NCBI GenBank assembly: GCA_020248985.1
Contig: JADCGL010000007.1
Coordinates: 1-64,000, forward strand
DNA length: 64,000 nt
From: Telmatospirillum sp.
Lineage (GTDB): Bacteria > Pseudomonadota > Alphaproteobacteria > CACIAM-22H2
Direction: 5' to 3'
Shown here: in pieces, positions 2,145-45,332 of the stretch
Layout of the letters: each line of letters opens with the position of its first letter
Position numbering within the stretch: the first letter of the stretch is position 1
Position numbers and translations under genes: made by a program
Notes under the pieces: generated by a model
Told to the model about the DNA's origin: nothing
The model's database searches: none
What the model saw: only the letters and a program-made list of their open reading frames with translations

Positions 2145-2153
2145 AAAGAAAAA

Positions 2154-2175
2154 GGGGCAGCCTTTCGGCTGCCCC
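2154..2175 (-). terminator. Rho-independent terminator of the autotransporter gene
   Basis: On the minus strand GGGGCAGCC-GAAA-GGCTGCCCC forms a perfect 9-bp stem with a GNRA-type tetraloop, followed at once by TTTTTCTTT. It lies 23 bp after the autotransporter stop codon. Its T-run ends at the ATG of the downstream TPR gene, so this element also controls how much transcription reaches the two TPR genes. Confidence 0.9.
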
Positions 2176-2198
2176 CCGCTCTTTCGTCCGGCGTTGGA

Positions 2199-5100
2199 CT
2201 AGAAGGTCTGGCGGATACGAGCCAGGAAGGTGTGCGAGATGAAGCTGGTGCGCGCTTCGCCATCGTAGTTGCCCGAAACGTCGAAGCCGGCCGGCGAACG
2301 GTAGGTGAGGCCTGCGCCGTACGTGCCCGCCGTCTTGCTCATCGACTGGCCGTCGGTCGTGAAGGTCGCCGTCGGCGTGGTGGTGAAGAAGCTGCTGGAG
2401 GACGGCGTCGTCGAGCCAAAATCCTGCTGCACGCCGATGCGGGCTTCCGGCACCAAGCGCCAGCCATCGGCCATGCGGTAAGTCCCCGTGAAGCGGGCAC
2501 CGATGCCCGCCGTGGTCGTCTTGATGTCCTTCTGCGCAACCGTCAACGCACCAACGCCGCTTTCGGTGTAGGTCTTTTGCTTCAGCGTCGAGTACTGGCC
2601 GAACGCGTTGGGCGTGACCGTCCAGGTCGCATCGATCGGTACAGCGTAGCCCGTGCCGACGCGCCCCGTGTACTGGTTCCCGTTCCACTTGCCAGTCACC
2701 AAACCGCCGCCGGCGGCAGCCGTGCTGCGACGGCTTTCGTTCTCGTGGTAGGTGCCGGCAGCAAGACCTTCGACATACCACGCGTTGGTGATGTCGTAGT
2801 TCACATAGAGGCCGCCGGTATACGAATTGATGTCGTTGTTGCTCGTCGTGCTGCCCTTGGGCTTCGTATTGGTCGACGAGTAGGCGCCGAACACGCCGAT
2901 CAGGAACGAGTCGGTCACCTGGCTGTCGAGGCCCGCAGCAACACCCCAAGTCTTGCCGTCGTAGCCGGTAAAGCCGGACTTGGTGCCCTTGTCGGCCATT
3001 GAGCCGAAGCCCTGGAACCAAGCGCCCGACGGGCGACCGCCGATACCGGCCGAGAAGCCAGTCTCGAGCGCTTCACCGCCGGCATTGGCCGTGCGCACCG
3101 CACTGGTGCGGCTCGTGACCGGGCCTGCGACGGCGGTACCAGCCGAAGCCGCTGCCGTCGATGTGGCGCCGCCGCCCGTGTTGTCGGGCTGCAGCGACTC
3201 GACCGCTGCCGCGAGGCTCGTGCCGCTGAGGGTCTGGATACGCTGCAGAATGGTCGTCACGTCCGAGCCAACCGTCGTTGCCGACGAAGCCGTGTTGAGG
3301 GCCGTGCCGAGCGATGCCGAACCCGGCGCCGTGGTCGCACTCGCGATGGCCGTCGTATAGCCGCCCGACACCGTCGAAACCGTAATGTTCGCAGCGTTAC
3401 GGGTGAAAGTCAGGAACGACGTGTTCGCCGTCGTCATGTTCGTCGACGCGAGGTTGATGTTGGTGGTGTTGATCACCAAGGTGCTGCCAGTGGCGAGCGT
3501 GACCCCCGACATATCGACCGCGACGCGGAAGCTCGTATTTGCCGTCAAGGTCTGGTTCGCGACGAGACCCGTTAAGTTGTTGGTCGTGCTCGTCGGCTTG
3601 AAGGTCACGAGGCCGGTCGAGGCCAGCCCGTTTGCCGTCGCGGCGACGTTGAGGGTCACAACCGCACCCGTGATCGTCAAATCACCGGCCGATGTGAATG
3701 CCGTCGTACCCGTAATCGTAACGTTCGACGAAATGAAGGTCGAGCTGCCGCTAGCCAAGTTGACGGTCGATGCCGAGAAGTTGGCACCCGGACGCCACGT
3801 GCCCGTTACGTTGATGTTTGCCAGCTTGTTGGCCGCCGTGCCGATCGCGCCGGACGTCGTCACGTTGGAACCCGAGATCAGCAGGTTGCCGCGGTCGTCG
3901 GTGCCGGCCGAGATCGTGCCGGTGTGGTTGGCCGACAGATTCAACGTACCGTTCGCGGTGAAGGTGGTGGCACCCGTGATCGCACCGCCGGCGTTGGTGG
4001 TGCCGCCCGAGATGTTGATGGCGGTCGCGAAGATGGCGCCCGACACGTTGACCGTGCCCGCCGCAACGTTGAGGTTGGCGATGCTGGCGGTCGAGTTGCC
4101 GATCGTGGTCGCGGTCACGGTCGATGCCGTGCTCACATTGAGCGTACCGGTATTGTTGGAGTCCGTCGTGATCGCCGCCAACGAAGCGTTGCCGGTCCCG
4201 TTCACATTGACCGTCAGCGCCGCGCCCGTGGCGTTCACGAAGTTCAAGCCGGTCGAAAGCGTCGTGTTGGCGATGTTCGCCGTGCCGGTCACGTTCAAGG
4301 TGGTGGCATTCATCGTGCCGGTGCCATTCGCCGCAAGGGTCGAACCGTTGCCGACGATGATGCGCGTCGCCGTGATGTTGGCGTTGTTGGCCAACGTATT
4401 GAGCGTGCTGTTGCCGGTAACGTTAACCGTGGCGAGCGCCGTCGAGGCGTTGATACCGAGCGCCGAGGTCGCAGCGACCGTCGCTGTGTTGCCGGTATTG
4501 ATGACCAACGTACCGGTACCGCTCGAGCCCGTGATGTTGCCCGAGAGCGTAGCAACGAAGTTGCCGGCAACCGTCAAGGTCGAGTTCGACAGCAACGTGG
4601 TTGTGTTGACCCCATAGGTGCCGTTGGCGCCGAAATTCTGCGTCAACGAACCGTTCGCAGCCACGTTGACGGCCGTCGCGAACGTATCCGTCGAGTTCAG
4701 AGACACAACGCCGCTGGAACCAACCGACAACAGTCCGATACGCGTGCCCGTAACGCCGATCGTGGTCGCCGTGAAGGTCTGCGTCGCATTCGCGTTGATC
4801 GTGCCGTTGCCCGCAATGTTGCCGGCCGTGATGTTGCCACCGACCGTGAGATTGCCGTTCTGGTTGATCGTCAGGTTCGTGGTGACGTTGGCCGTGCCGG
4901 TCAGGTTCAGCGTGCCGTTGATCGTCGAGTTACCAACGAAGATGCTGCCGTTGACCGTGGCAACGTTGTTCGTGGCGTTCGTTTGGTTGAAGTGCAGCAG
5001 GCGCGCCGCGTTCGTGCCGACGTTGCCCGTGATCGTCACGTTGCCCGACAGGTTCACAACGCCAACGGTGTTGGTCGCCTGGTTCGTCGTGATGTTGCCG

Positions 5101-5798
5101 GTGATGTTGCCGCCGCTAGCGTTCAAGGTCAGGTTGGCGTTGGCCATGTTGATGCTGCCGCCGATCGTGCCCGACGTGTTCAACACGGCGGCTTCGCCGT
5201 CCGCTGCCGCAACGTACGAGAACGCGAACCCAGACGTGTTGGCGTTCGACACGTTGGCCGAACCCAGCAGCGTGATGCCCACGCCGGCCGATTGGTTGCC
5301 GGTCACCGCGATCGTGGCACCGCCCGTGCCGTTGTTGTTGATCGTCGAGTTGATGCTGAGCGTCGCGTTCGGTGCGGAAAGCGCGATCGCGGACGCGTTC
5401 GCGGCCGTGATGTTGTAGAGATTGCTGATCGTGACGTTCTGGCCGGTCGTGCCGTTGATGTTCAACGCGACATTCGTGCCGTTTGCGACAATCGAAGCGG
5501 CCGTGCCGTTGCCCAGGGTCTGCGTCGCGGCAGTCGTGAAGGCGACTGGATCGGTTGCGCCCGTCTGGCTCGTGTTGTTCGTCGTGCCGGTCAAGTTCAC
5601 CTGCGCTTGGGCTTGCTTGATCAGCGAAACCGTCCAACCGGTGCGCTCGCCCGTGGCGATGTCGACCGTCGGCACAACCGCGACCGGGACCGCAACCAAG
5701 ATGGCAGCAAGCGATACACCGCCAAGAAGGACCCGAGAATTCGACGCTTGGCGATTCATGGAAGCTGCAGCGAAGCCGACATTTGCCTTGGGGTTCAT
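2199..5798 (-). CDS. Autotransporter (type Va-like) with sequon-saturated passenger
   Basis: A 1199-residue surface protein. Residues 1-66 are an extended N-terminus with a hydrophobic core (about 24-42), ending near KQAQAQ, where signal cleavage is plausible. Residues about 67-805 are a low-complexity Asn/Thr/Gly/Ala-rich passenger of the beta-helix kind. By hand count it carries about 70 N-X-S/T sequons (NGT, NVT, NIT, NLT and others), with about six in ten Asn residues in a sequon. Residues about 805-918 are a linker (TSTAAASAGTAVAG). Residues about 920-1199 are the beta-barrel, beginning at GAWFQGFGS and ending in RIRQTF with a terminal Phe, as BAM substrates do; the barrel has a single sequon. 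I find no cysteine. The ATG is preceded by a good AAAGGACC site. The neighbouring GT41 N-glycosyltransferase makes this its likely substrate, glycosylated in the cytoplasm before export. Confidence 0.9.
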   Translation of the reverse strand: MNPKANVGFAAASMNRQASNSRVLLGGVSLAAILVAVPVAVVPTVDIATGERTGWTVSLIKQAQAQVNLTGTTNNTSQTGATDPVAFTTAATQTLGNGTAASIVANGTNVALNINGTTGQNVTISNLYNITAANASAIALSAPNATLSINSTINNNGTGGATIAVTGNQSAGVGITLLGSANVSNANTSGFAFSYVAAADGEAAVLNTSGTIGGSINMANANLTLNASGGNITGNITTNQATNTVGVVNLSGNVTITGNVGTNAARLLHFNQTNATNNVATVNGSIFVGNSTINGTLNLTGTANVTTNLTINQNGNLTVGGNITAGNIAGNGTINANATQTFTATTIGVTGTRIGLLSVGSSGVVSLNSTDTFATAVNVAANGSLTQNFGANGTYGVNTTTLLSNSTLTVAGNFVATLSGNITGSSGTGTLVINTGNTATVAATSALGINASTALATVNVTGNSTLNTLANNANITATRIIVGNGSTLAANGTGTMNATTLNVTGTANIANTTLSTGLNFVNATGAALTVNVNGTGNASLAAITTDSNNTGTLNVSTASTVTATTIGNSTASIANLNVAAGTVNVSGAIFATAINISGGTTNAGGAITGATTFTANGTLNLSANHTGTISAGTDDRGNLLISGSNVTTSGAIGTAANKLANINVTGTWRPGANFSASTVNLASGSSTFISSNVTITGTTAFTSAGDLTITGAVVTLNVAATANGLASTGLVTFKPTSTTNNLTGLVANQTLTANTSFRVAVDMSGVTLATGSTLVINTTNINLASTNMTTANTSFLTFTRNAANITVSTVSGGYTTAIASATTAPGSASLGTALNTASSATTVGSDVTTILQRIQTLSGTSLAAAVESLQPDNTGGGATSTAAASAGTAVAGPVTSRTSAVRTANAGGEALETGFSAGIGGRPSGAWFQGFGSMADKGTKSGFTGYDGKTWGVAAGLDSQVTDSFLIGVFGAYSSTNTKPKGSTTSNNDINSYTGGLYVNYDITNAWYVEGLAAGTYHENESRRSTAAAGGGLVTGKWNGNQYTGRVGTGYAVPIDATWTVTPNAFGQYSTLKQKTYTESGVGALTVAQKDIKTTTAGIGARFTGTYRMADGWRLVPEARIGVQQDFGSTTPSSSSFFTTTPTATFTTDGQSMSKTAGTYGAGLTYRSPAGFDVSGNYDGEARTSFISHTFLARIRQTF

Positions 5799-6386
5799 TA
5801 ATTCGGTCCTTTTTTATTCAAGCAATGACGCCGGAACGGCACACGAAATTTCGCGAGACGGCCCTTTTGAACCTTCTCTAAGGGATTTCTAGCAGCGGCT
5901 CGAAAGAGTTTGCAACTCAATACCGCCAGTCAGGCTCTGTGTTTTTCTGGCTGTGGCCCATCTGCAACGCCCTTGAACGTTTGTTAAGCAACCAGAAACT
6001 CTATATTTAACATAACATTAGATCTGTTTTCGATGCGATTCCACGCTGCGTCCGCGCGACCGCGTTACGCACAGCTCGGCCATTGACCGCCCGGCATTGA
6101 ACCCAAATGCGCCACACCCTAAATCGTTGCTGTTTTTGCCTGAAATCTTAATAACTATCTGAAATTAATAAGCTAGTTTCGACTTTTGTGTCGATTCGCG
6201 CGGCGCATTTCGAATGTTTCCGTTTTTTGTCGCGCGAAGCGCGCCCGACGGGGGTTTCCGCCCTAATGCCGCGGATTTGAAATACCGTGCCCCAGAAACT
6301 GTGCCCGAATCCGACTAGCCAAGGGCGACTCGGCAGCGTATTCCAGGCGCGCAATTTCATTTCAGCGCGTCGTGGAACCCCAAAAA
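5799..6386. promoter_or_regulatory. Divergent promoter region between autotransporter and methyltransferase genes
   Basis: About 590 bp without a convincing gene. It is clearly AT-rich around 5985-6200, unlike the rest of the locus, so promoters for both directions probably lie here. On the minus strand TTAAATATAGAG near 6000-6012 could serve as a -10 region for the autotransporter. A short inverted repeat TCGAC-ttttgt-GTCGA lies at 6179-6194, and a near-palindrome gtcgcgcgaagcgcgcccgac at about 6229-6249. No stop-free frame here has codon use like the neighbouring genes. Confidence 0.5.
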
Positions 6387-7283
6387 ATGGAATCATTGCA
6401 CGAGATTCTTGGCCTCGAAACGCTTGCCGAGATCGAGATTCTCGATATTGGGGCCCTTTCCGAAGGGACCGACCGCTATCAGCGCCTTGTCGATCTCGGC
6501 CAGGCCCGAATCACGGGGTTCGAGCCGAATCCTGCCGAATACGAAAGACTGTCGCGGCGCGGCCATCCTTACAGCTACATCCCGAAATTTCTCGGCGACG
6601 GCAACGCGCATACGCTGCGTATCGCGCGGTATCCGGGCTGCTCGTCGCTGTTCGCGCCCGATCCGGCGATCATCGACATGTTCTCGACCATCGGCGCGAC
6701 GGAAGACGGCGACAATTTCCGCACGGTCGAAACGCACCGCGTCGAAACCACGCGGCTCGACGACATCGAAGAACTGCGCGCGCCCGACTACGTGAAGATC
6801 GACGTTCAGGGCGCCGAGTTGATGGTGCTCGAAAACGGTGCCCGCACCCTCGGCGGCACGATGGTGCTCGAATGCGAAGTCGAATTTCTGCCGCTCTACA
6901 AGGGCCAGCCGCTGTTCGGCGAAATCCAGGCCTTCCTTCAGTCGCAAGGCTTCATGGTGCACAAGCTGATCGAAGTGGCGGGGCGCAGCTACCGGCCGAT
7001 GAACGCGCCCAATCCGTTCGAACCGATCAGCCAGATTCTATGGGCCGATGCCGTCTTCGTGCGCGACGTGCGCGGCGTTGCGAACTGGCCCCAAATGCAG
7101 ATCCTGAAGGCCGCAACGGTTCTGCACGAAGTCTACCTGTCATACGACCTCGTCAACTATCTCCTGCTCGCGCTCGACCGGCAGCGCGGCCCCGCGTCCG
7201 ACCTGTCGCTGCGGTATCTGCGGCGCCTGACCGCGGAAACGGCCCTGCCCAATCTCTATCTGACGCAGCGCCTTCAGCCCTAA
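6387..7283 (+). CDS. FkbM-family methyltransferase
   Basis: A 298-residue SAM-dependent methyltransferase of the FkbM type, which commonly O-methylates sugar hydroxyls in glycans. The SAM-binding motif I is seen as IEILDIGAL near residue 17, followed by the acidic strand end TGFEPNP. The family hallmark YVKIDVQGAE is near residue 137, followed by LECEVEF. There is no signal peptide or membrane segment, so it acts in the cytoplasm. The start is taken at the ATG at 6387; a GTG at 6372 in the same frame is the alternative, and neither has a strong ribosome-binding site. The gene is divergent from the autotransporter and converges with the GT41 gene with 7 bp between stop codons. The context suggests it may methylate the glycan placed on the autotransporter, which is inference. 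Confidence 0.85.
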   Translation: MESLHEILGLETLAEIEILDIGALSEGTDRYQRLVDLGQARITGFEPNPAEYERLSRRGHPYSYIPKFLGDGNAHTLRIARYPGCSSLFAPDPAIIDMFSTIGATEDGDNFRTVETHRVETTRLDDIEELRAPDYVKIDVQGAELMVLENGARTLGGTMVLECEVEFLPLYKGQPLFGEIQAFLQSQGFMVHKLIEVAGRSYRPMNAPNPFEPISQILWADAVFVRDVRGVANWPQMQILKAATVLHEVYLSYDLVNYLLLALDRQRGPASDLSLRYLRRLTAETALPNLYLTQRLQP

Positions 7284-7290
7284 CGCGCGC

Positions 7291-9135
7291 TCAATCGACG
7301 TAGATGGGCCCGTTCGAGCCGTCGCGCGACAGATCGTCGTGGTGCTCAATCAGATACTCGACCGCTTTGGCGAAATACGGCGCCACATGCTCGCCCTCGC
7401 CGAACACGTCGCGCGCGAAATCGATCTTCGCCACGCGCCGGGTTATCTCTTCGCGGTATTCCGTGTCTTCGATCAGGCGCAGCGCTTTGGCGATGTAGTC
7501 CTCGTCGCTGCCGGCAATGAGTTCGGCGAAGCCGAGCTTGCGCAGCAGATGCGCCGCGTACTGGTTGAAGCTGCGCGTGCCCTCGTAGGCGATCGGCGGG
7601 ATGCCGAGATAAAGCGGATCGACGATCGTGTTGAGCCCGCCGAACGGAAAGGCGTCGAGGCACAGATGCGCCTGCTCGAAACGCTCGAGATAGTCCTGCG
7701 TCGCCATCGGCGGATGGATCACGACATGCTCGGGCCCGAGGATTTCATGGATTGCCATCACGTAGGGCGTGTAGCCGTTGCGGCGCAGTCCGCCGCCCGG
7801 CGAGAAATGGAAGACCACGTGCTTCTTCGAGCGGTCGCTGATCTTCTTGAGGACGCGCAGAATGTCGGCATTGGTCTTCGGCGCCGACCACGGGCAGAAG
7901 ACAATGACGGGCTCCTGCGATTTGACGGGGTATTTGCGCGGCCACTCGATCTTGTTCGGCGTGGCGCCCCGCCCCGGGATCAGCACGAGTCTTTCGGAGT
8001 AGTTGCGCCGCGCGCGTTCCTCGGTCTCGATGTCGCGCCCGCTCAGGAAATAGTCGATCTTCGAGCCGAACGTGCTGACCGGATGGCCGCAGGCCATGAT
8101 CTGGATCGGCGCCAGGCGCTGGTTGGCGAGAATGACGCTCGAGGCGGACATGCCGACATCGGGATAGAACGCGACCATGGCCCCGACATTGTAGACCGCA
8201 CTCGTGTCGATGTTGCCGTTGACGATCGCGACGTCGATGCGCTCGTCGAACAGATCCATGTCGACGTCCTTGACGCCGTCGAGCACGACGAGCGTCATCT
8301 TGTATTTGCCCTTGAGCGCCTTGGCGAATTTCGAAATCGTGCGGTAGACCGCGTGGGCGGGATACCAGAACGAGGTGATGACGACGATGCGGTCGCGGCG
8401 CAGCTTCGGCGACTGCGGCAGGTCCGGCGGGCTTTCGCGCTGGATGATGCGGTTGATCGTGCGCTTGACGTGCGCCTCGGCGTCCGGTGCCGCGTAGGTC
8501 ACCATGAAATAGGCATGGTTGAGCTCGGGCGTGGCCAGCTTCACCTGCGTGTCCAGATGCCGGAAATGCTCGCGCAGATTCTCGAGCGCCACCGGCGAGG
8601 CGAGCTTGCCGAAATCGTCGCCCACGAAGGCGAAGTACCAGATCGAGGCCAGATGCAGGTTGGTCGACATGATGGCGTCGCGATTGATCGAAACCTTGCT
8701 GCGCGCCGAATAGAGCGTCAGCACTTTGACGATGTTGTCGGGATAGCGGAGCACGATCTTGAGCGCGGGATCGGTCGTGCCGAACGACGAAAAATAGGCG
8801 ATGTTCGACAGCGTTTCGTTCTGGCGAATGAAGACTTCCGCGTATTTTTCGGGAATCTGGTACTCGGAATGGCAGAAGCAGAACATAAGCGTCTGCACGA
8901 AGATGTCGGCGTAGTGCCGATGGTGCTCGTTGCTCAGATCGAAGTCGAATTGGGACAGGCCGATGAGCCCGTCCAGCAGATATTTGGACAGCGCATCCCA
9001 TTCCTTCGCTTGGAGCAGGTCGATGCATTTGGACGTCGAAAATTCGACTTGCTGGCCGCCGGGCGCGGGTTCGGCAGGCGTTTGGCAAACGACCGAATTT
9101 TCGGCCGGGGACTGTCCATTCGTGCTATCTGACAT
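7291..9135 (-). CDS. GT41/HMW1C-like N-glycosyltransferase
   Basis: A 614-residue cytoplasmic protein matching the HMW1C/ApNGT branch of GT41 in length and layout. An N-terminal all-alpha domain (about 1-230) is followed by two Rossmann-like lobes. Diagnostic stretches are HAVYRTISKFAKAL (family HS.YRT), FYPDVGM with ANQRLAPIQIMACGHPVST (family NTRLAPIQ..ALGHP.TT) and VVFHFSPGG. Near the C-terminus comes CLDAFPFGGLNTIVDPLYLG (family NPFPFGNTNGIIDM..LG), which lines the nucleotide-sugar site. These enzymes transfer hexose from UDP-sugar to Asn in N-X-S/T sequons of exported adhesins. The ATG at 9135 has AGGA nine bases upstream and is preferred over the GTG at 9147. No export signal. The sequon-rich autotransporter 1.5 kb away is the obvious acceptor. 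Confidence 0.88.
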   Translation of the reverse strand: MSDSTNGQSPAENSVVCQTPAEPAPGGQQVEFSTSKCIDLLQAKEWDALSKYLLDGLIGLSQFDFDLSNEHHRHYADIFVQTLMFCFCHSEYQIPEKYAEVFIRQNETLSNIAYFSSFGTTDPALKIVLRYPDNIVKVLTLYSARSKVSINRDAIMSTNLHLASIWYFAFVGDDFGKLASPVALENLREHFRHLDTQVKLATPELNHAYFMVTYAAPDAEAHVKRTINRIIQRESPPDLPQSPKLRRDRIVVITSFWYPAHAVYRTISKFAKALKGKYKMTLVVLDGVKDVDMDLFDERIDVAIVNGNIDTSAVYNVGAMVAFYPDVGMSASSVILANQRLAPIQIMACGHPVSTFGSKIDYFLSGRDIETEERARRNYSERLVLIPGRGATPNKIEWPRKYPVKSQEPVIVFCPWSAPKTNADILRVLKKISDRSKKHVVFHFSPGGGLRRNGYTPYVMAIHEILGPEHVVIHPPMATQDYLERFEQAHLCLDAFPFGGLNTIVDPLYLGIPPIAYEGTRSFNQYAAHLLRKLGFAELIAGSDEDYIAKALRLIEDTEYREEITRRVAKIDFARDVFGEGEHVAPYFAKAVEYLIEHHDDLSRDGSNGPIYVD

Positions 9136-42062: not shown

Positions 42063-45000
42063 TCAGCGCATATTGTCGTTGGTGATGTAGGGATCGACCG
42101 GGGTGCCGTCGGCGGGCGCATTGGTGGCCCCGCCGCTGCCCGAAAACACGCCGAACAGGCGGCGCAGGAAGCCGGGCGTGAGTGTGGAGAGCGGGTTGAT
42201 GCTGGTCTGCACGTCGGCCATCGCCCCCGAGGCGCGGTAGTTGGCCGCGAACACGCCCGAGCCGCGCTCGCCCACCAGGAGCTGGCCGATCAGCGGAATG
42301 TTGCCGAGGATCGAGTTGAGCGCATAGGCCGGCACCAAGGTACCTTCGAGGTCCAGCGTGTCGGCCGCCAGATCGACCTGGCCGCGCGCGGTGATGCCGA
42401 GGGCCGCCCCGTGCATGCGGCCGTCTTTGATTTCGATCTTGGGATCGGCCCACGCAATGTCGGCATCCAGGCGCCGGAAGCCGATGCCGTCGCCGCGCAA
42501 CGAGTCGAGCACGCCCGTGAGCAACGCAACCGACAGCAGCTTGGCGAAGCCCGGCGCGTTGACGAGGCGGAATTCTTCGATCGCGATCTTGCCCACGATG
42601 GCGCGGTCGGCGCGCGCGGGGTCTTCCTTGCCGTCCACCCGCAGCGTGCCGCCGACCACGTTGGGCGTGATGTCGAGCGCGGCCAGCAAGGCGCCCGCAT
42701 CGCCCGCCGCCGCCTTCAGCGTCAACAGCCCGTCGGCACCCGGCACGATCGACACGGCAAGCTCGCCGCCCAGCGCCGCGCGCACGCGGTCCATCGTCTT
42801 GGCCGATATCTCGAGCTGCAGCCAGCGCACATCGTCGCGATGGCCGTGCAGCGAAAATTCGAACAGGTCGCGCCCCTCGCCCAGCGCCACGCGCGCCACG
42901 TCGAGCCCCAAACGCAGGCCGGGGCGGCCGGGCACGGGCGGCGTCTTGTCGGCCAAAAAGGGCTGGGCATCGAAGAAAGCGCCCTTGCCTTCGAACGAAT
43001 TGTACATGAGCCCGCCCGGGCGCGCCGGCGCTTCGCGCTTGATCGCGGCAGTGTCGAGATCGATGCGGCCGGCCAGCAGCAGGCGCTGCAGATCGGCCGC
43101 CTTGAAGGTGCGGCCGTCCGGTTCGAACTCGACGCGGCCCTTGGCGGCAATGCCCGCCCCCGCCAGATCGAGCCGTTCGATCGCGCGCAGCACGTCGCGC
43201 TCGAGGCGCAGAGTCATCGCCAGCTTGGTGCCGGCCGTGGGTGCACGCGTCCAGTCGATTTCGGGCACGGCGAAATCGACGGCGGCCAAGTCGAGCTCGA
43301 GGCCGATGTCGCGCGTGCCGTCGCGAAAGGCCCTCGTCGTCATGGCGAGGCCCACGGGGCCGACGGCATAGGGGGCGAAATCGAAGCCGAGCCGGTTCAC
43401 GCTGCGCGTCGAAACGGCTGCGGCGCGCGCGGTCGCGGTTTCGACCGGGCCGTTCGTCGCTTCGAACTCGCGGCGATAGACGATCTCGGCGTCGGCGCCT
43501 GCCAGCCGCACGGGCCCGCGAATATCGAGGCCCTTGGCGTCGACGCGGAAAGCGAGCGTGCCGTTCTCGATGTCGTTGCCGAGGATCGCGTTGCGCTGGG
43601 TGAAATTCGCGACCCGGCCGCTCGCCACGACAGCGATGTCGTCGAGCTTCAAGGCCGCCAGCAGCGGGAAGCGCGCGACGATGCGCATGTCGGCGGCGCC
43701 GCCGAAATTTTCGGGCTGCTCGCCGATGCGCTTCAAGAAGCCGAGCGGCGGCAGATCGACGAGCTGCAGCGCGTCGCGTGCGGGGCCGACGATGGGCACG
43801 TCGATCGCGGCCGTCTGCAAGGCCTGGTCGAGCCCGGCCAGCGCCACAGTGCCGTTGCCGACCTGCAGCGAGCCGACCGTGCCGCCGCGCGTGCGCATCT
43901 CGAGGCGCTTGGCGTCCATCGTGGCCGTGGCGGCCACGCCGCGCACCGGCGGCAGCCCGTCGATGAAGGTCACGGCCGCCCCTTCGACCGAAAAATCGAA
44001 GCGCAATTTCTCGACGGCGGCGTTGGCCCAATCGCCCTTGGGTTCGCGCAAGGAAAGTTCGGCCTTGGCCGCGGGGATGCGCCCGCCGGCGATGTTCTCG
44101 GCGATCCAGCTGCGCGCATTGGGGCTCGCGAACAGCGGCCACAGGCGTTTGAGTTCGTCGGTCGTGAGGCCGGCGATGTCGATTTTCGCGTCGAGCTGGG
44201 CGCGCTGGAGCGGAGCCGGAATTTCGGCCGTCGCACGGATCTCGGTTTCCCCGATGCGCAAGGTGAGAGCGTCGAGATCGACGCGGGACAGGTCGCCCGC
44301 AAGCGTGGCGCGCAAGCCCGCCCGGTCGAGCGTAACGGCCTGCGCGTACCAGCTGCGGTCGCGCAACTGCAGCCCGTCGGCGTCCAGCGCCAGCGCCACG
44401 GGGCCGAGCGTGCCGTCGAGCGCCAGCGTGGACCGCAGCTCGAGCCGGGCCGTCGCGTCGATGTTGCGCAAGGCTGCAAGCCGCGGATCGAGATCGGCGA
44501 GTGCGGCCACATTGATCGCACCGGCGACGGCCGAAAACGCGATCGCGGCATCGGCGACGCGGTAAAGCGCATCGACATCGAAGCGCAGCCGCTGCGCGCC
44601 CAGCACGGCCGGCAAAGCGGCCTGCAGCGCGATGCCGCCGCCGTAGCGGCGCAGCGCCACATTCGCACCCTCGACGCCGAAGCGCAGGCCGCTTGCCGCA
44701 TCGTCGATCGCGATCGTCGTGTCGGCGAACACCGCCTCGGCCAGCAGGCCCAGCGGCCGGCGCGGATCGGCGGGAGCGGCAAGCTCGGCGATCAGGAAGG
44801 AAACGAAGCGGCTGCCGCCTTCGGCCGGGGCCGCACCGGCCGTCGCGGCGGCATCGGCGGCCGGGAGTTCGTCTTGCAACTGCAGCGTGCCTTCGGCATT
44901 GCGCGCCAGGTTCAAGCGCAGGCCCTGCACGCGCAAAGCCTCGGGCTGGATCTCGCCGTGCAGCAGCCGGTTGATCGACAGCGACAGCCAGGCCTGGGGG

Positions 45001-45278
45001 ATGTGCACGATCTCGGCGCCGTCGCTTGCCAGCACGCGCGTGTCCAAGACGCGCAGCTGGATCGACCGGCTGCTGGCCGACCAGTCGAGCGAGGTGTCGC
45101 CCACGTCGATCGACATGCCGTTCGCGCTGTCCCGCAGCGCGGCTTCCAGCAACGGCGTCACGAACGGCACGGTGATCGGCCCCACCGAGAGGCGCCACAG
45201 CAGCACGCCGGTCGCGATCAGCAGCAGCGCCGCGAGCGTGCCGACCAGTTCGAGGAACAGGCGGATCGGATGGCTCAT
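42063..45278 (-). CDS. AsmA/YhdP-like inner-membrane-anchored periplasmic protein (DUF3971 type)
   Basis: A 1071-residue protein. One N-terminal membrane anchor (LFLELVGTLAALLLIATGVLLW, about 6-27) is followed by a very long beta-rich periplasmic part. Segments typical of the family are SIDVGDTSLDW near the start, IAENIAGGRIPAAKAELSL in the middle (DUF3971) and the AsmA-type C-terminal region with GIGFRRLDADIAW and LDLEGTLVPAYALN. The protein ends LTPGFLRRLFGVF and a short tail. Such proteins form long grooves that move phospholipids between inner and outer membranes. The ATG at 45278 is chosen because it places the anchor at the N-terminus. It diverges from glnE across 54 bp. Confidence 0.85.
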   Translation of the reverse strand: MSHPIRLFLELVGTLAALLLIATGVLLWRLSVGPITVPFVTPLLEAALRDSANGMSIDVGDTSLDWSASSRSIQLRVLDTRVLASDGAEIVHIPQAWLSLSINRLLHGEIQPEALRVQGLRLNLARNAEGTLQLQDELPAADAAATAGAAPAEGGSRFVSFLIAELAAPADPRRPLGLLAEAVFADTTIAIDDAASGLRFGVEGANVALRRYGGGIALQAALPAVLGAQRLRFDVDALYRVADAAIAFSAVAGAINVAALADLDPRLAALRNIDATARLELRSTLALDGTLGPVALALDADGLQLRDRSWYAQAVTLDRAGLRATLAGDLSRVDLDALTLRIGETEIRATAEIPAPLQRAQLDAKIDIAGLTTDELKRLWPLFASPNARSWIAENIAGGRIPAAKAELSLREPKGDWANAAVEKLRFDFSVEGAAVTFIDGLPPVRGVAATATMDAKRLEMRTRGGTVGSLQVGNGTVALAGLDQALQTAAIDVPIVGPARDALQLVDLPPLGFLKRIGEQPENFGGAADMRIVARFPLLAALKLDDIAVVASGRVANFTQRNAILGNDIENGTLAFRVDAKGLDIRGPVRLAGADAEIVYRREFEATNGPVETATARAAAVSTRSVNRLGFDFAPYAVGPVGLAMTTRAFRDGTRDIGLELDLAAVDFAVPEIDWTRAPTAGTKLAMTLRLERDVLRAIERLDLAGAGIAAKGRVEFEPDGRTFKAADLQRLLLAGRIDLDTAAIKREAPARPGGLMYNSFEGKGAFFDAQPFLADKTPPVPGRPGLRLGLDVARVALGEGRDLFEFSLHGHRDDVRWLQLEISAKTMDRVRAALGGELAVSIVPGADGLLTLKAAAGDAGALLAALDITPNVVGGTLRVDGKEDPARADRAIVGKIAIEEFRLVNAPGFAKLLSVALLTGVLDSLRGDGIGFRRLDADIAWADPKIEIKDGRMHGAALGITARGQVDLAADTLDLEGTLVPAYALNSILGNIPLIGQLLVGERGSGVFAANYRASGAMADVQTSINPLSTLTPGFLRRLFGVFSGSGGATNAPADGTPVDPYITNDNMR

Positions 45279-45332
45279 GGTGCTGCTTGACCCCGCGACG
45301 GACGTCGGGCCAACGTAACGCCGGGCGCAAGA

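Follow-up and report, generated by a model that had tools for sequence, protein, structure and literature searches.

The window analyzed here, which makes up the opening 64 kb of a 202,893-base contig (JADCGL010000007.1) from a Telmatospirillum sp. genome (G000; 4.3 Mb, 98.9% complete), encodes on its minus strand an intact type Va-like autotransporter (AT; 1199 aa, positions 2199-5798) and, 1.5 kb away, a 614-aa glycosyltransferase of family GT41 (hereafter GT41; 7291-9135) that shows kinship to HMW1C and belongs to a divergent clade. The passenger of the AT is packed with N-X-S/T sequons, an enrichment that clearly marks out this one protein in the fifth of the genome scanned, and GT41 is its lone neighbor resembling an N-glycosyltransferase (NGT). 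A search of the genome for STT3/PglB (PF02516) at E 0.001, with 3 candidates scored, gave no match; the same survey matched 4 of 14 control genomes, all of them archaea, and its sensitivity to bacterial PglB is unproven. Together, these observations make cytoplasmic N-glycosylation by GT41 the best explanation, and we put at roughly 0.6 the probability that GT41 serves the neighboring AT as its dedicated cytoplasmic N-glycosyltransferase. The gene layout given in the original prediction (AT, a FkbM methyltransferase between it and GT41, and two genes for tetratricopeptide repeat (TPR) proteins downstream), the type Va-like character of the AT and the sequon saturation of its passenger were all borne out, and the functional pairing of the AT with GT41 that it proposed is probably correct.

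Under the mechanism that we propose, GT41 would take a UDP-hexose as donor, by analogy probably UDP-glucose, and would glycosylate the asparagines of many passenger sequons in the cytoplasm, prior to export through Sec; the AT barrel would then display the glycosylated passenger on the cell surface, and FkbM may methylate the glycan.

A sequon-packed passenger

The AT matches the full PF03797 profile (1-255, E 8e-53), with the barrel at residues 926-1179, and is the sole match to this family in the genome (E 0.001). By residue, the protein divides into an export region (approximately 1-65; assigned by eye from a hydrophobic stretch at the N-terminus), the passenger (66-805), a linker (806-925) and the beta-barrel (926-1179). 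The distribution of the sequons follows this division: none is found in residues 1-65, 70 (32.7 expected) in the passenger, none (1.0 expected) in the linker and one (2.6 expected) in the barrel, with the run ending where the passenger ends and approximately 60% of the passenger asparagines falling within sequons.

Residues 61-900 contain 71 sequons compared to 33.8 in composition shuffles (z 8.0), and the excess persists under a null that preserves the order of polar, small and hydrophobic residues (71 vs 38.2 in residues 61-919, z 7.3). Because the reversed motif, S/T-X-N, is also raised (51 vs 38.3, z 2.9, under the latter null), part of the sequon excess can be attributed to strand alternation; composition or strand alternation as its full cause was rejected. 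Repeats were likewise rejected as the source, considering that all 72 sequons of the whole AT differ in their 7-residue context and that a repeat search of the gene yielded a single short array of 2.2 copies. The structural model of the AT (mean pLDDT 33.7) is too poor for placing the sequons on a beta-helix.

The sequon load of this AT stands apart from that of other autotransporters. It reaches z 8.5 and 8.3 sequons per 100 residues, whereas 56 control passengers, of which 52 come from ATs of the class and 4 from ATs of the order, peak at z 2.8 and 4.1 per 100; some of the control genomes may carry an HMW1C-like gene. The class sample consists of one AT per genome among the matches listed (126 of 318 genomes matched in the search), with frames of about 800-2700 aa that were picked before motif counting and that, with several coming from one genus, are not fully independent. 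Four of its 56 loci (L080, L082, L100 and L117) failed the rule for the end of the open reading frame (ORF) and do not enter the shuffle comparison; 4 of the 5 order loci were used, with L024 (G001) excluded for a frame truncated close to the end of its contig (L022, L023 and L025 are truncated too). Under the order-preserving null, for which all 56 class loci were taken without the order loci, the maximum is 3.06.

A scan of 851 kb of the 4.3-Mb genome, which took ORFs of at least 150 aa (some of them certainly spurious), singled out the AT: of 569 ORFs, no other is a clear sequon outlier (score 6.2, the next being 3.25 with 3 sequons). An Asn-rich ORF of 2402 aa with 224 Asn (L159:2843-10048) has no such bias, with 47 sequons vs 48.8 expected. 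The AT of a congener (G005), whose genome has no match to the GT41 of this locus at E 1e-30, also shows no bias, with 12 sequons vs 15.4 expected. As a positive control, we examined 2706 residues of a Paraburkholderia plasmid adhesin that lies upstream of an HMW1C-like gene carrying the HMW1C domains and the Arg/Asp pair discussed below; here, 252 sequons were counted vs 101 expected (z 18.7), with 125 reversed motifs (z 3.0).

A divergent HMW1C relative

The best solved relatives of GT41 by phmmer are ApNGT (2.8e-35) and AaNGT (2.9e-34), and the protein matches the GT41 catalytic domain PF13844 at 45.9 bits (cut-off 25). A low-confidence structural model, built from a 3-sequence alignment (mean pLDDT 57), has AaNGT (E 2.9e-24) and ApNGT as its top Foldseek matches, over 608-639 alignment columns, and NGT ranks first in the VIA comparison (Z 25.1, 511 residues, root-mean-square deviation 8.3). 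The model places helices at residues 34-233 (pLDDT <50 for 103-217), and the VIA match to 3q3e runs from residue 29 on; no TPR family was matched in GT41 by Pfam. GT41 resembles HMW1C, ApNGT and AaNGT in being a GT-B enzyme with an N-terminal part that is helical in the low-confidence model and without a TPR match, in its core UDP-sugar contacts and in having an exported sequon-rich protein as the likely substrate. It differs from them in the low identity of the structure alignments (21-24%), in the loss of two sequon-reading residues and in a score far below the curated cut-off.

In a tree of the GT-B part, GT41 groups with three proteins, one of them partial, from UBA2562 (G134), a metagenome-derived genome of the same class, Alphaproteobacteria (99/99), and apart from the canonical NGTs (97/99). 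Only one of the seven other GT41 loci fetched from the Telmatospirillum genome entered the tree, on a very long branch, the rest having failed the ORF rule; given the long branches, the deeper order is unsure.

All five core UDP-sugar contacts of AaNGT are kept in GT41 (H276, R280, K440, N520 and D524), as are G369, H370 and Y500, for a total of 8 of the 14 nucleotide-sugar positions examined. The acceptor side gives a different picture. According to a study of AaNGT, R177 and D215 recognize the +2 residue of the sequon, and the Ala mutant of either is inactive (PMC10507012). The R/D pair is present in three Burkholderiaceae HMW1C-like proteins, and the corresponding residues in the UBA2562 relatives are Y/H, I/H and Y/I. 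As judged by these alignments, the donor site of GT41 looks alive and the acceptor site looks rebuilt or altered.

A more specific proposal is that a separate alphaproteobacterial GT41 lineage N-glycosylates a dedicated type Va AT and reads N-X-S/T through a different acceptor site, in which His207 (also His in two UBA2562 relatives; the third has Ile) would stand in for the Asp known to recognize the +2 residue, with FkbM finishing the glycan. We consider this version tentative, at odds clearly below even. If true, such an enzyme-substrate pair with replaced sequon-reading residues would mean that enzymes of family GT41 can read the same motif in another way, and it would offer a new means of N-glycosylating proteins in one step as well as a way to examine how the family shifted between Ser/Thr and Asn.

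Arguments against the pairing and alternative explanations

Several observations weigh against a dedicated enzyme-substrate pair, and the missing R177/D215 pair is the main one as well as the feature that would make the system new. By MAFFT and hhalign, the two residues are replaced by D174 and H207; in pairwise phmmer alignments, H207 shifts onto H214, and A208 or a gap stands at D215, so that the pair is kept in no alignment. With the known Arg/Asp pair gone, the reading of the sequon by GT41 is unexplained. Furthermore, the peptide-side Q468 of AaNGT corresponds to G448, and 6 of the 14 nucleotide-sugar positions differ (S277, T437, H494, S495, T519 and G521); the conservation of nucleotide-sugar residues on which the original prediction depended thus holds for the core contacts and fails for H494, S495 and S277. 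Similarly, its description of the enzyme as HMW1C/ApNGT-like stands with respect to kinship, on the phmmer and Foldseek evidence, but GT41 is not a plain member of the family: NCBIfam NF049992 (NGTferase) gives 141.3 bits vs a curated cut-off of 1000, and HMW1C_N (PF18071) and HMw1_D2 (PF18254), both matched in all three Burkholderiaceae proteins, are unmatched at E 0.01. On the side of the substrate, the reversed motif is also raised in residues 61-900 under composition shuffling (50 vs 33.7, z 3.6). Some adhesins encoded beside HMW1C-like genes show little sequon enrichment: a second Paraburkholderia adhesin has 45 sequons vs 39.8 expected, a Caballeronia two-partner secretion (TPS) adhesin 26 vs 17.6 (with 30 reversed motifs), and the Cupriavidus ORFs upstream of the HMW1C-like gene 13 vs 9.5 and 13 vs 6.5. 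An RTX protein beside the enzyme of another genome of the order (G022) has 9 vs 4.0 (reversed, 5 vs 3.8). These weak or mixed counts indicate that strong enrichment is not universal beside such enzymes. Finally, GT41 and the AT are separated by 1.5 kb and do not share an operon.

The distribution of the enzyme points in the same direction. The conserved co-occurrence anticipated in the original prediction was not seen where it was examined: no GT41 ortholog was found in the 22 remaining order genomes, and the AT-GT41 pairing is seen once, in one genome only. At E 1e-30, 2 of 61 relatives and 2 of 23 order genomes match, in each case this genome and G022, where the match spans only 246-606 and the protein falls outside the GT41 clade in the tree; at E 1e-35, 2 of 385 class genomes match and, at E 1e-40, 1 of 398 phylum genomes (the genome samples overlap, and the class, phylum and NGTferase-model searches scored at most 3 candidates per genome). 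The G022 frame (661 aa; L027:6275-10275) matches HMW1C_N at 30.4 bits and, with a mechanically assigned start, overlaps the end of the RTX-repeat gene by 4 bases. The three UBA2562 relatives lie on contigs of 3,986 and 15,499 bases (L014 and L015) without an AT match, and six AT frames of that genome total 29 sequons vs about 20.5 expected over whole frames, a weak excess. On the shorter contig, two divergent GT41 paralogs, one of them incomplete, are encoded in tandem; the third is on the longer one. When genome contigs were scanned with the three-sequence alignment, the UBA2562 genome alone was matched; with two narrow peptide patterns in use, this is weak evidence that the clade is rare. 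One scan of IMG/VR confirmed no relatives of GT41.

The loss of R177/D215 is what would be expected if GT41 acted on some other substrate or, like OGT, on Ser/Thr; the rows of Asn-X-Thr would then belong to the structure of an unusual beta-helix. Beta-helices often contain Asn ladders, and the raised reversed motif fits this explanation as well. Moreover, in the VIA comparison, the GT-B part of the model is tied between NGT and both SPINDLY and a bacterial OGT (Z 24.5-24.6), so that the fold alone is not decisive. However, the excess after Asn sits at +2 (1.9x for S, 2.2x for T) and hardly at +4 (1.1x and 1.3x), none of the 56 other ATs comes near the sequon load of this one, and the top Foldseek matches are NGTs; we regard this explanation as unlikely. 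Clearly more improbable is that the passenger is N-glycosylated by another enzyme, either a different GT41-like gene product or an unknown transferase, with the adjacent GT41 acting elsewhere. The GT41 query does match 17 places in the genome, its own gene and 16 others, but the latter mostly match in the C-terminal catalytic part and score at most 57.7 bits; in addition, the NGTferase model at E 1e-25 matched the adjacent gene only (3 of 12 candidate places scored), and STT3 is unmatched.

A dedicated AT-GT41 pair could also be part of a larger module in which the first hexose is added by GT41 and methylated by the FkbM-family methyltransferase (6372-7283, plus strand; PF05050 E 5e-18, TIGR01444), and in which the TPR proteins serve to present the passenger to GT41. 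In all three Burkholderiaceae plasmid loci examined (L039, L040 and L041; Cupriavidus, Caballeronia and Paraburkholderia), the HMW1C-like gene lies next to TPS or ESPR adhesins and is immediately followed by the gene for a methyltransferase-domain protein of approximately 585 aa, with a GT9-like match in two of these proteins and TPR matches in one of those two. A methyltransferase next to such an enzyme is thus less odd, although the Burkholderiaceae proteins match Pfam families other than FkbM. In the present locus, FkbM diverges from the AT and converges with GT41; the three genes therefore form no single operon, and a terminator-like hairpin separates the AT from the TPR genes. A full module of this kind is, in our estimate, slightly less probable than action of GT41 on another substrate. 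Going by position, FkbM is a possible glycan O-methyltransferase; a role of FkbM or the TPR proteins in glycosylation is suggested by their location and is unproven.

Known systems and neighboring genes

HMW1C-like proteins are reported to be prevalent in Pasteurellaceae, Enterobacteriaceae, Neisseriaceae and Burkholderiaceae, and their genes as falling into two categories, located beside a TPS adhesin or orphan (PMC3983070); the GT41 gene, next to a type Va AT, fits neither of the categories given there. The closest parallel is with Actinobacillus pleuropneumoniae, for which one report lists 72 sequons in the autotransporter adhesin AtaC, 59 of them in the passenger (PMC5303269). Both systems thus feature an autotransporter with some 70 sequons, mostly in the passenger; in A. 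pleuropneumoniae, however, that account places no adhesin gene beside ngt and a second glucosyltransferase in the operon, whereas here the AT is a near neighbor and no second glycosyltransferase was matched among the seven proteins scanned. The same seven locus proteins have no match to heptosyltransferase or GT9 families (Pfam and NCBIfam, E 0.01). The linkage made by BAHT heptosyltransferases is O-linked. Two BAHT enzymes, TibC and AAH, are comparable in that the glycosyltransferase gene lies near that of the modified autotransporter but differ in the enzyme family and the ADP-heptose donor (PMC4358343). Among the titles listed from a mostly open literature, none combined GT41/HMW1C with FkbM or with methylated cytoplasmic N-glycans on adhesins in this manner.

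Downstream of the AT, on the same minus strand, are the genes for TPR protein 2 (342 aa, 1116-2144), which has a hydrophobic stretch in its C-terminal part as judged by eye, and TPR protein 1 (229 aa, 390-1079), both assigned by matches to TPR families; a search of the 22 other order genomes at E 1e-40 left TPR protein 2 unmatched. The hairpin between the AT and TPR protein 2 (2152-2177, minus strand) has 11 pairs, 8 of them G-C, and a T-rich tail. Terminator-like sites are not in excess across the region (11 vs 12.0 in shuffles), and the role of this one as the AT terminator, predicted from its sequence, is suggestive only; perhaps TPR protein 2 is not co-transcribed with the AT. A promoter scan at the locus gave no match, and phmmer at E 0.1 retrieved no solved relative of FkbM. 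Elsewhere in the window, a 1185-aa ORF (41733-45290) has no Pfam match at 1e-5, and on the opposite strand an ORF of 1163 aa overlaps it.

In the congener G005, the region L026:5701-10576 holds the sole AT match and, some 80 bases downstream, the gene for a TPR protein; by eye, the C-terminal half of this protein appears GT9-like (Pfam matches TPR only). These two genes are perhaps another AT-glycosyltransferase pair.

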